From: Rickettsiales bacterium
Lineage (GTDB): Bacteria > Pseudomonadota > Alphaproteobacteria > Micavibrionales > GCA-2720935
Reading direction: 5' to 3'
DNA length: 36,002 nt
NCBI GenBank assembly: GCA_002720935.1
Contig: PBIV01000022.1
Span: 11,815-47,816, forward strand
This document shows, piece after piece, positions 17,607 through 29,383 of this stretch. The stretch's first letter is position 1, and each line of letters opens with the position of its first letter. The notes beneath the pieces are model-generated. The model was not told where the DNA came from and searched no databases. It saw only the letters and a list, made by a program, of their open reading frames with translations. Position numbers and translations under genes: made by a program.

Positions 17607-20168
17607 TTAAAGTGTTTTTGCGATTTCTTCAATCTCGAAGCACTCAACAACATCGCCTTCTTTGATATCATCATATTTTTCAAAGGCCATACCACATTCC
17701 ATACCTTCACGCACATCTTTAACTTCGTCTTTTTCACGTTTCAGTGTTTTCAAAGTACCCTCATGAATAACGACGTTATCACGAAGTAGGCGAACCTTCG
17801 CACCACGTTTCACAGTACCATCAGTAATCATACAACCAGCAACCTTACCAACTTTAGTAATGTTGAATACGGCACGGATTTCTGCATAACCAATGAAGTT
17901 TTCTTTTAAGACTGGAGACAATAGACCTTCTAACTTCGCCTTAATATCATCAATAATGTTATAGATGATTGAGTAGTAATAAATCTCACGACCAAGTTGT
18001 TTTGCCTTATCACGGGCTTGTGAATTTGCACGAACGTTGAAACCAATCACAACGGCATTTGATGCGTTTGCAAGCGTGATATCAGCTTCTGTGATCTCCC
18101 CAACAGCAGTGTGAAGGATTTTGATATCAACTTCTTCATTGTCTTCTGCTAGTTTTCTTAATGAACCACTAATCGCTTCGAGCGAGCCTTGAACATCACC
18201 TTTAATAATAACAGGTAGTGTTTTCACATCGCCACGCTTGGCTTCGGCAAATAGCTGATCAATCGTTGCTGTTTTCGCAATAACGTCCAGATCTTTGGCT
18301 TTACGCTTACGATAGTCAGAGATTTCACGCGCTTCTGATTCAGATTTCACAACAACAAAATCATCCCCAGCTTGTGGTGTGCCGTTAAGACCTAAAACCT
18401 CAACCGGAACAGAAGGGCCAGCAGACTTAACACGCTTTCCTTTATCATTAACAAGCGCACGAACCTTACCCCACTCAGAACCAGAGATAAAGATATCACC
18501 AACTTTAACTGTACCATTTTGAACAAGTAGTGTTGCAACCGCACCACGACCTTTATCAAGCTCGGCTTCAACAATTGCACCACGACCTTCACGATCTGGG
18601 TTGGCTTTTAATTCTAACATTTCTGCTTGTAATAAAACGGCTTCTTCTAATGCATCCAAGCCCATTTTAGTTTTCGCAGAAACTTCAACAGCTTGAACAT
18701 CCCCAGAATAGTCCTCAACAATAACTTCATGTTGTAAAAGCTCTTCTTTTACTTTTTGTGGATTTGCTTCTGGAAGATCACATTTGTTAATCGCAACAAT
18801 GATTGGAACTTCGGCTGCTTTCGCATGATGGATCGCTTCGATTGTTTGAGGCATCACACTGTCATTTGCGGCAACAACCAGAATAACAACATCTGTTACA
18901 TTGGCACCACGCGCACGCATCTCAGTAAAGGCCGCGTGACCAGGTGTATCAATGAATGAAATCTTTTTACCGTCTTTGCGCTGAATCTGGTAAGCACCAA
19001 TATGCTGTGTAATACCACCAGCTTCGCCAGCAACAACATCAGTTTTACGCAAAGCATCCAAAATAGATGTTTTACCATGATCAACGTGCCCCATGATTGT
19101 GACAACAGGGGCTCTAGGTTGAAGGTCTTTATCTTTATCTTCGATATCTTCAATAACTTGCTCAACATCGGCTTCAGTAACACGGCTAAATTTATGTCCA
19201 AAATCAGTCACAACCAATTCAGCAGTATCTGCATCGATAGGCTGGTTCAGTGTTGCCATAACGCCCATACCCATTAAGAACTTAATCACGTCAGCTGATT
19301 TCTCTGCCATTCTTTTGGCGAGTTCTTGAACGGTAATAGTCTCTGGAATAACAACGTCTCTGACTTGTTTTTCTTTCGGCTCATCACTGATTTTCTTTGT
19401 TTTCTTTTTAGAGCGACGGCTCGCCATACTTCTTTGGCGCTGTTCGACTTCATATTCATAGTTAAGAGCAGAGTTTACAGTAAAGTTATTTGAGCCACGC
19501 CAGTCGCGCTCATCACGCGTGCCACCACCAAGACGGCGTTTCTTCTCTTCTGCTTCCTCTTCTTCTTTTGTTGGTCGTGTCGGTGTTGAGAATTTCTTGC
19601 GCTCTTCAAATTGCTTTTTGGCTTTTGCCTCGGCTTCTTCTTTTTGTTTGTTCTCAGCAGCCTTAATTTTAGCAAGCTCTTCTAATTCTCTTTCACGCTG
19701 AGTTTTTACAGGCTTATCTGTTTCTTCAACATCGCTATCATCAGATTTAGCAGCTTCAGCTTTTTTAGCGGCTTCTTCTTCAGCTAGAGAAGGAAGGCCC
19801 TGTTCTTTACGGCGAGCGTCTTCTTCTTCACGTCTTTTTGCTTCTTCAGCAGCTTTTTTAGCAGCTTCTTCTTCGGCTTTCTTCGCGGCTGCCAAGGCAC
19901 GTTCACGCGCTTCACGCTCTTGCTTTGTTAAGCCCGTTAAATTTTGGTTGTCATCACCCAGATTACCAGAAGGCTGTCCTGTAGATGATCTTTTTTGCAA
20001 ACCACCAAGAGCTGTGCGCTTTCTTTTAACTTCAACAGTTACAGAATTAGAGCCACCCCTAGATTTAGGAGCGCCACCACCAACACTTAATGTCTTTGAT
20101 GATAAACTTAAGGTCTTCTTACCTTTATCGTCTTTTTGCTCTTCGTCTTTTTTATTTTCTGTTGCCAT
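17607..20168 (-). CDS. infB: Translation initiation factor IF-2
   Basis: 853 aa; [49 protein letters not shown]; low-complexity K/E/A-rich N-terminus. Confidence 0.98.
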
Positions 20169-20231: not shown

Positions 20232-20878
20232 TTATGAGTTTTGTAAATTCCGTATTATTTTTATCTTATTAATTAATATAGGTACCAAATGGTGTTTTTT
20301 AAGCCCTATGAAAACCACTCTCTCGCGTGAGAAGATGGGGCCATACTTATCCGCATCGCCAAATTGAACCAATCTTTTAGGCGAAAGTGTATTAAAATAT
20401 GAGGGGATAGAACTTAAATCTTGTGCGACAAGAGCTGTTGCAACCTCGCTATGACGCATGAGGCTTTCAACCTTGCTTGATCCAAAAACCAAATCGCCAG
20501 TACGGCGCAAAAGGGCGACCATCTGATAAAAATCAGTCTCAAGCAAATCAAGGAGTTTGCTTTTTATAATCTCAAAACTGTCGTCAGTTTTAAATGAACC
20601 TTCATCATAACTTTTTTTAATCGCCTCTAAGGTAAGAGGGATATAAAAACCATTATCTGTTTTAATCTTATCTTTTAAATCAAAACCAGATTGCCATCAG
20701 GATCAAAAACACAATGAAGATTTTGTGGAAGGTCAGGGCTCTTAATTGATTTTTTAGACTTATCAGGAGATTGAGCGATACCGTTCACTCCCTCATCAGG
20801 AGTGTTCGACATGACGCTTACGCTGTTATCAGCGCTGTCATGCTGTGATGAGACAACCTCATCTTTTGTACCGCTCAT
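20232..20878 (-). pseudogene. ylxR: YlxR (DUF448) RNA-binding protein with C-terminal L7Ae-like domain, interrupted by a one-base frame disruption
   Basis: Between nusA and infB. Frame 1 (20878-20675) ends ...LHCVFDPDGNLVLI*. The next frame continues ...DLKDKIKTDNGFYIPLTLEAIKKSYDEGSFKTDDSFEIIKSKLLDLLETDFYQMVALLRRTGDLVFGSSKVE...IFSRERVVFIGL to 20232. Adding one T to the T4 run (20682-20685) gives a 215-aa continuous protein. Confidence 0.8.
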
Positions 20879-20914: not shown

Positions 20915-22447
20915 TTAGGCTGCGTTTTCGTCTAAAGCTTCTTGCTCATCATTGGCAAGGTCTTCTTCGCTGATAAGGCCAGCATTAACACGCTCAGCCA
21001 TAACGATTTCGTTTGCTTGTTCTAGGCCAACTGTTTTACGACCTAAGATTTCAACCAACTCATCACCAGATAGGTAAGCAAGATCCTTACGGCTCTTAAC
21101 ATCATCTTCTGCTAGTTTAACAAGCATTTCTGGTGTAAATAGACCCATCTCAACAAGGTCATCTTGTGTGCCAAGGTCTTTATATTTCTTAGTTAGCTCA
21201 GCATCACGCTTTTCAATGAATGTAGCAGCACGGTTTTGAAGTTCTTGAGCGATCTCTTCCTCAAAGCCTTCAATCTTAACAAGTTCAGAGAGTTCTTCAT
21301 CACGAAGCTCTTCAACCATTGTGAAACCTTCAGCAACAAGAAGGTGTGCCAATACATCATCAACATCCAACGCTTCCATGAAGAGTTCAGAGCGCTCTTT
21401 AATTTCAGCTTGGCGACGTTCAGATTCTTGCTCTTCCGTCATAATGTCGATATCCCAACCAATAAGGTTAGACGCAAGGCGCACATTTTGACCGCGACGA
21501 CCAATTGCTAATGAAAGCTGATCATCAGGAACAACAACTTCAATTTTGTTCTTATCTTCATCAAAAACAACTTTTGATACTTCGGCAGGGGCAATCGCAT
21601 TAATCACGAATGGCGCCATTTCGCCAGTCCATGGAATAATATCAATTTTCTCGCCTTGTAATTCTGCAACTACCGCTTGAACACGGCTACCGCGCATACC
21701 AACACAAGCCCCAACAGGATCAATACCAGGATCATTTGATAGAACAGCGATTTTCGCGCGGCTACCAGGATCACGGGCAACAGAACGAATCTCGATAATG
21801 CCATCGTAGATTTCAGGAACTTCTTGTGTGAATAATTTCGCTAAGAATTGTGGGTGTGTTCTTGATAAGAAAATTTGTGGACCACGGTTTTCACGGCGAA
21901 CATCATAGATATAAGCACGAATACGCTCGCCCGTTTTTAAATGCTCACGAGGGATACCCTCATCACGGCGTAAAATCGCTTCTGCCTTACCAAGGTCAAC
22001 AGTAACGTTGCCATATTCAACACGCTTAACAACACCGTTGATGATCTCACCAACACGGTCTTTAAATTCATTGAACTGACGATCTCTTTCAGCTTCACGA
22101 ACTTTTTGTGTAATAACTTGTTTCGCAGTCATCGCAGCAATACGACCAAAATCAAGCGGGGGAAGTTTATCTTTTACAAAACCACCAAGCTCAACTTCTG
22201 GATCAATTGCTTTTGCTTCTTTTAATGTTAATTGACGAGGGGCTTCTTCAACTTCCTCAACAACTTCACGGAAACGGTAAAGATCAATGTTACCAGATTT
22301 GCGGTCAACAATCGCACGAATGTCATGTTCAAAACCATATTTTGAACGACCAGCTTTTTGAATAGCTTCTTCCATTGCCTCAATGACAACTTCCTTATCA
22401 ATGCCTTTTTCTCGTGCAACTGTGTCACATACTTGTAAAATTTCCAT
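20915..22447 (-). CDS. nusA: Transcription termination/antitermination protein NusA
   Basis: NusA S1/KH pattern: RTHPQFLAKLFTQEVPEIYDGIIEIRSVARDPGSRAKIAVLSNDPGIDPVGACVGMRGSRVQAVVAELQGEKIDIIPW. Confidence 0.98.
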   Translation of the reverse strand: MEILQVCDTVAREKGIDKEVVIEAMEEAIQKAGRSKYGFEHDIRAIVDRKSGNIDLYRFREVVEEVEEAPRQLTLKEAKAIDPEVELGGFVKDKLPPLDFGRIAAMTAKQVITQKVREAERDRQFNEFKDRVGEIINGVVKRVEYGNVTVDLGKAEAILRRDEGIPREHLKTGERIRAYIYDVRRENRGPQIFLSRTHPQFLAKLFTQEVPEIYDGIIEIRSVARDPGSRAKIAVLSNDPGIDPVGACVGMRGSRVQAVVAELQGEKIDIIPWTGEMAPFVINAIAPAEVSKVVFDEDKNKIEVVVPDDQLSLAIGRRGQNVRLASNLIGWDIDIMTEEQESERRQAEIKERSELFMEALDVDDVLAHLLVAEGFTMVEELRDEELSELVKIEGFEEEIAQELQNRAATFIEKRDAELTKKYKDLGTQDDLVEMGLFTPEMLVKLAEDDVKSRKDLAYLSGDELVEILGRKTVGLEQANEIVMAERVNAGLISEEDLANDEQEALDENAA

Positions 22448-28489: not shown

Positions 28490-28846
28490 TTATATCAAAT
28501 AAGGTTTAATAAATGCTACAGAAAATCCAACCGCAGCCCAAGCCAAACAGCTTGCCCCGACGGTTAGTGAAAAATTATTTTCATTAATCATAAAGTAAAA
28601 AGTTAAATAGTATGCAACAAGGGGAAGTAAAGCCAAACACCCAAAAAGCATAGTGTCTTTCATGGCTTGGATATTTCCGCCCTGATTTTGCCAAACCCCG
28701 AAGGTTGCAAATAGTGTAAATGTTGGAAAGGTAACAGCCAGCATACTGACGAAATAATTTTCTGTACGACTAATAAAACTAATAATGATAACAACGATCG
28801 CGCCAAGCAGGCCTTTAAGCATCATTGTAACGGCAGGGGTAAGCAT
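28490..28846 (-). CDS. GlpM-like small integral membrane protein
   Basis: 118 aa, about four TM segments; LKGLLGAIVVIIISFISRTENYFVSMLAVTFPTFTLFA resembles GlpM (KAALGALVVLL...KTKNYYIAGLIPLFPTFALIA). Confidence 0.7.
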   Translation of the reverse strand: MLTPAVTMMLKGLLGAIVVIIISFISRTENYFVSMLAVTFPTFTLFATFGVWQNQGGNIQAMKDTMLFGCLALLPLVAYYLTFYFMINENNFSLTVGASCLAWAAVGFSVAFIKPYLI

Positions 28847-28858
28847 AAAAACTCTTCT

Positions 28859-29368
28859 TTATTGGTAGGGATTGGCGACGTTAAAGATTTTTAACAATTC
28901 AATTTCAAACGCTTCCATGCGTTCTGCTTCATCATCTTCCATATGATCAAACCCAAGAAGGTGGAGCGTCCCATGAATGATCAAATGACGCATATGATCG
29001 GCAAAACTTTTGCTTTGCTCAGCTGCTTCGCGTTGAATTGTTTCATGGGCAAAGACAAGGTCTCCAAGCATTAATTCTGGATCGGTTTGATGTGCATCTA
29101 AAAGCGGGCTTTTATAATCATGGGCGGTTGCAAAAGATAAAACATTGGTTGGCTTATCTTGTTCACGATATTGCTCATTAATTTGTGCCATATATTCATC
29201 ATGGCTCAACAATACTGAAACCTCGACAATCTTTTTATTATTAAACAGGGGGTGTTTTGCAAATTTCTTTATACACAGTGCAATTGTCTGGCTAATAAAA
29301 TTCTTATGATCGGGAAGAAGCTGTTTCCACGCTTCATCATCATGGTCAATATCGATACGTGCTTGCAT
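28859..29368 (-). CDS. ybeY: Endoribonuclease YbeY
   Basis: NEQYREQDKPTNVLSFA and zinc site HLIIHGTLHLLGFDHMEDDEAERME. Confidence 0.96.
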   Translation of the reverse strand: MQARIDIDHDDEAWKQLLPDHKNFISQTIALCIKKFAKHPLFNNKKIVEVSVLLSHDEYMAQINEQYREQDKPTNVLSFATAHDYKSPLLDAHQTDPELMLGDLVFAHETIQREAAEQSKSFADHMRHLIIHGTLHLLGFDHMEDDEAERMEAFEIELLKIFNVANPYQ

Positions 29369-29383
29369 AGTCTTAAATTTGCC

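Follow-up and report, generated by a model that had tools for sequence, protein, structure and literature searches.

The window, a stretch of 36,002 nucleotides from an uncultured bacterium related to the predator Micavibrio, contains a degraded ylxR-L7Ae fusion gene between nusA and infB, with a reading frame that is broken once. We consider it probable that this gene has been caught during its loss and that the frame break is a young mutation, so that the host most likely shows gene loss in progress. The gene has lost most of the positions conserved in its family, and related lineages have repeatedly discarded it.

Layout and identity of the broken gene

Flanked by nusA and infB, the gene has the same orientation as both (Table 1). 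The open reading frame of the N-terminal half ends in ...FDPDGNLVLI*, with the TAA codon at 20677-20675, and can be aligned to the family in the PDGNLV region. From 20696 down to the stop at 20232 the -1 frame is open; it reads (WQSGF)DLKDKIKTDNGFYIPL...SRERVVFIGLKKHHLVPILINKIKIIRNLQNS. An earlier, sequence-only reading of this locus had reported a disrupted ylxR in which the N-terminal half stops right after the PDGNLV stretch and the -1 frame continues, with a T4 run at 20682-20685, and our analysis reproduced each of these observations. That reading had also placed the change at the T4 run; the single-base break stands, but its site is less narrowly defined, since both frames are open in the interval of about 20696-20677 and the indel can lie anywhere within it, so that the exact lost base cannot be placed. 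A one-base loss is preferred because the family spacing PDG-xxxx-DL then results. Because of the break at 20677-20696 there is no single open reading frame, and the gene was filed as a degraded copy and not as a working YlxR-L7Ae member.

Table 1. Coordinates of the broken gene and its neighbours in the window
Feature	Position	Strand	Basis
nusA, intact, upstream neighbour	20915..22447	-	ORF of 510 aa
N-terminal half of the broken ylxR-L7Ae gene	20675..20878	-	67-aa ORF and codon signal; RxCxxTG absent
Frame-break stretch, both frames open, holds T4 at 20682-20685	20677..20696	-	sequence, frames
C-terminal half in the -1 frame: end of the YlxR domain and L7Ae/YlxQ-like domain	20232..20684	-	149 codons and stop; profile, AlphaFold, Foldseek
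infB, intact, downstream neighbour	17607..20168	-	ORF of 853 aa; homologues in relatives

NusA is 62-69% identical to its counterparts in relatives of the order across most of its length, and a ribosome-binding-site-like AAGGA is found 11 nt upstream of the infB start. Scans of the spacer gave promoter-like sites no more often than expected by chance and terminator-like sites slightly above the chance level.

Mean codon scores in the frames of Table 1 were +0.25 for the N-terminal half and +0.06 for the C-terminal half, compared with -0.8 to -1.8 in the other two frames; each half carries a codon signal only in its own frame, and this signal matches the signature of the genome's genes. The C-terminal frame stayed open over its full length in none of 20,000 shuffles. 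Elsewhere in the window, a 122-codon open frame at 28493-28858 of the minus strand, adjoining the gene at 28862-29383, shows a codon signal only at 28781-28852.

As profile A1 contains the window sequence, which makes its match to the window circular, the search was repeated with a profile built without it. The scores were then 37.4 bits for the C-terminal half and 47.0 bits for the two halves joined with X at the break, while none of 300 shuffles exceeded 0.8 bits; the N-terminal half alone scored 0 bits and was unrecognisable as YlxR. No Pfam family scored above its cut-off with either half; the YlxR family (PF04296) likewise had no match to the joined protein or genome-wide, and the RxCxxTG-type N-terminal signature is absent from the window copy in the family alignments. 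In intact relatives, PF04296 matches the first part of the protein, and Pfam recognises the second half as L7Ae only weakly at best. Compared with known structures, the family profile matched 1g2r with its N-terminal half (labelled in the PDB only as 'hypothetical cytosolic protein'; we take it to be pneumococcal YlxR) and the YlxQ structures 3v7q and 3on1, together with L7Ae/L30e structures, with its C-terminal half. The AlphaFold model of the C-terminal half had a pLDDT of 89.8, and 3v7q and 3on1 were among its Foldseek matches (TM by target 0.72 and 0.69, respectively); the model used relatives in its alignment and therefore shows homology, not function. The C-terminal half is a real YlxQ/L7Ae-like domain, as the sequence-only reading had proposed. 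Its naming of the gene as ylxR, located between nusA and infB, also holds: since position, length, profile and fold agree, the gene is a YlxR-L7Ae gene, though it fails the Pfam YlxR test.

YlxQ is a free-standing gene in Firmicutes, and the C-terminal half of the window gene is a discrete YlxQ-like domain that is better conserved than the N-terminal half. Both features would suit a gene fission in which the L7Ae-like half becomes a protein of its own, translated from an internal start such as the ATG of YQMVALL named in the earlier reading. However, the first starts in the C-terminal frame, TTG 20546 and ATG 20522, are located 135-160 nt inside it, lack a ribosome-binding-site-like sequence and, according to the model, fall within the first long helix of the domain. 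Nor is there a split copy among the full-length relatives in the order: the suggestion that the two halves might always be separate genes in relatives is contradicted by all 24 of them, which are single open genes. Fission is thus a highly unlikely explanation.

The codon signal extends in both frames right up to the break and a hairpin is predicted over the site, which would be compatible with slippage of ribosomes or RNA polymerase at 20677-20696 and the production of a full-length protein from two frames. Against this, an in-frame scan found no X_XXY_YYZ heptamer, as the sequence-only reading had noted, the only run available being the short T4, and 0 of the 24 full-length relatives use a frame break. 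The predicted hairpin reached a z of -3.3 in one folding window and -2.6 or weaker when that window was shifted, and about 2% of the regional windows gave similar folds; it was therefore not counted as evidence. Of a young mutation, a consensus error and recoding, the last is the least likely, and we would give it very little credence. We find it similarly hard to believe that unrecognised recoding at this site lets the nusA-infB operon of the lineage yield a signature-less, highly diverged YlxR-L7Ae RNA-binding protein in a low, fixed proportion.

The minus strand at 20650-20690 is A/T-rich and contains a nearly perfect inverted repeat, GTTTTGATTT ... AGATTAAAAC, across the frame break. The break may have arisen by a hairpin-templated deletion, but plain slippage would account for it equally well.

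Repeated loss of ylxR in Micavibrionales

The host genome (1.72 Mb) is the sole member of its family among the relatives searched. In the order as a whole, a profile search detected ylxR in 26 of 142 genomes: 24 with full-length, open copies, Micavibrio sp. S141 bin.105, and the window genome. Only the window copy has a frame break; the 24 full-length relatives contain neither a frame break nor a stop. In 44 relatives a single contig carries both nusA and infB; the spacer measures 0-275 bp, with no ylxR between the two genes, in 38 of them and about 720-880 bp, with an intact ylxR, in six. A search of the short spacers for ylxR relics found none.

In a tree of NusA and InfB, in which the window genome forms a deep lone branch within the order, the absence of ylxR requires eight changes, one of them outside the order, and the well-supported (starred) branches force at least 5-7 changes, depending on the state that is counted; the tree is a quick one under a simple model, and the change count is approximate. 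By this approximate count, ylxR has been lost independently about seven times within Micavibrionales, the whole gene disappearing and leaving nusA beside infB. None of the papers found in our literature search describes a loss of ylxR in Micavibrionales.

In a sample of the class, PF04296 was present in 206 of 289 genomes. The 20 genomes without it that were listed are all small (0.9-2.4 Mb). A groundwater alphaproteobacterial MAG outside the Micavibrionales branch (L031) is also missing ylxR and has a nusA-infB spacer of 24 bp.

Erosion of the gene and origin of the frame break

The window copy retains 10 of 33 strongly conserved columns, compared with 24-33 in the 24 intact relatives. It shares an identity of about 0.19 with other YlxRs, against the value of about 0.30 that is usual for an equal distance in NusA/InfB. 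Both marks by which a pseudogene would be recognised, a disrupted frame and the loss of residues that intact relatives conserve, are therefore present. The YlxR of Micavibrio sp. S141 bin.105 also has a low identity, about 0.22; since this copy has no signature and yet an otherwise open frame, erosion alone is no proof of function loss.

Apart from the break, no stop codon was found in over 200 codons. When neutral erosion was simulated to the depth seen in the window copy, the mean number of stops was 6.8 and none of 400 runs was free of them; with 0.2 neutral substitutions per site, an absence of stops already had a probability of 3.5%. These numbers are rough, as the window gene itself served as the starting sequence and the mutation bias was assumed. 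Zero stops against about seven expected nevertheless indicates that the frame was kept during the divergence and that the break is recent.

The main rival to gene decay is an error in the assembly or its consensus, whereby the contig lost one base and the cell has an intact gene for a single, fast-diverging YlxR-L7Ae protein of about 215 aa. The assembly consists of 62 contigs and is 73% complete, and the disruption is exactly one. The simulation, which indicates that selection maintained the frame until very recently, points in the same direction, and an intact gene would be just as likely to show the open C-terminal frame, a confident fold model and no stops. Micavibrio sp. S141 bin.105 provides a precedent for a diverged YlxR of this kind. 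To estimate the error background, we screened twenty contig stretches, comprising 447 kb, 429 coding segments and 144 abutting same-strand pairs, for frame switches without a usable start, using a filter that misses breaks that chance to lie near a start codon. Two pairs were retained, ylxR included; the other, in which weakly coding sequence comes after a complete gene, was not convincing, so that no further convincing frame break passed the same filter. Moreover, the break is at T4, yet the A7, A6 and T5 runs of the same gene are unbroken, and the gene affected is one that is eroded here and has been discarded elsewhere in the order. An assembly that is not rich in frame errors, with its one break in a gene that the order discards, favours a real mutation, and we regard a lost base in the contig as less likely, although it deserves to be kept in mind.

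Among the four alternatives offered by the sequence-only reading, recent pseudogenisation is thus the best supported, whereas separate translation is poorly supported and recoding is unsupported. The order of events can be read in part from the locus, where most conserved positions were lost while the frame was kept and a single break followed. If the loss of one base around 20677-20696 is a real, recent mutation, translation would end after 67 codons, and the product, devoid of both the YlxR signature and the L7Ae domain, would presumably be non-functional. Selection on the gene may well have been weak before the break, and decay would be expected to continue. Together with the relatives, the locus suggests a series from divergence with an open frame, through a frameshift, to clean deletion.

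Significance and comparison with known systems

The YlxR (RnpM) of B. subtilis binds the RNA of RNase P and modulates this enzyme; about 400 genes are altered when YlxR is disrupted (PMC11898665). Beyond the modulation of RNase P, YlxR is little understood. The losses within Micavibrionales, an order that includes predatory bacteria, together with one apparent intermediate, amount to natural knock-outs, which allow one to ask what replaces YlxR or what stops needing it. YlxR loss seems to go along with genome reduction in alphaproteobacteria. The suggested series of events is informative in itself; taken as a single case, the locus is ordinary gene decay, probably at an intermediate stage, and is of modest interest as a rare intermediate.

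The closest known type is the YlxR-L7Ae protein of Micavibrio aeruginosavorus ARL-13 (YlxR being also known as RnpM, DUF448 or PF04296), with which the window gene shares the position between nusA and infB, the domain order, a length of about 215-240 aa, profile similarity and the L7Ae/YlxQ-like fold of the C-terminal half. Unlike that type, the window copy has a frame that is broken once, lacks RxCxxTG and most of the conserved positions, and has an N-terminal half that is unrecognisable alone. The ylxR of Micavibrio sp. S141 bin.105 (L033, genome G365) resembles the window copy in its N-terminal half without RxCxxTG and in its unusually low identity to the family, but it is open where visible, its L7Ae half is better conserved, and it does not belong to a sister lineage. 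That gene is split between two contig ends (L217 on C92 and L218 on C141 of G365), with the middle lost. The lineages of the order that have lost ylxR (e.g. genomes G051, G016, G018 and G017) are similar in that a working ylxR is absent from the same operon; in them, however, the gene is gone without a relic, whereas in the window it is still present and mostly open. Finally, the C-terminal half has the fold of Bacillus YlxQ (3v7q, 3on1), which is encoded by a gene of its own, whereas in the window this domain is the second half of a fusion.
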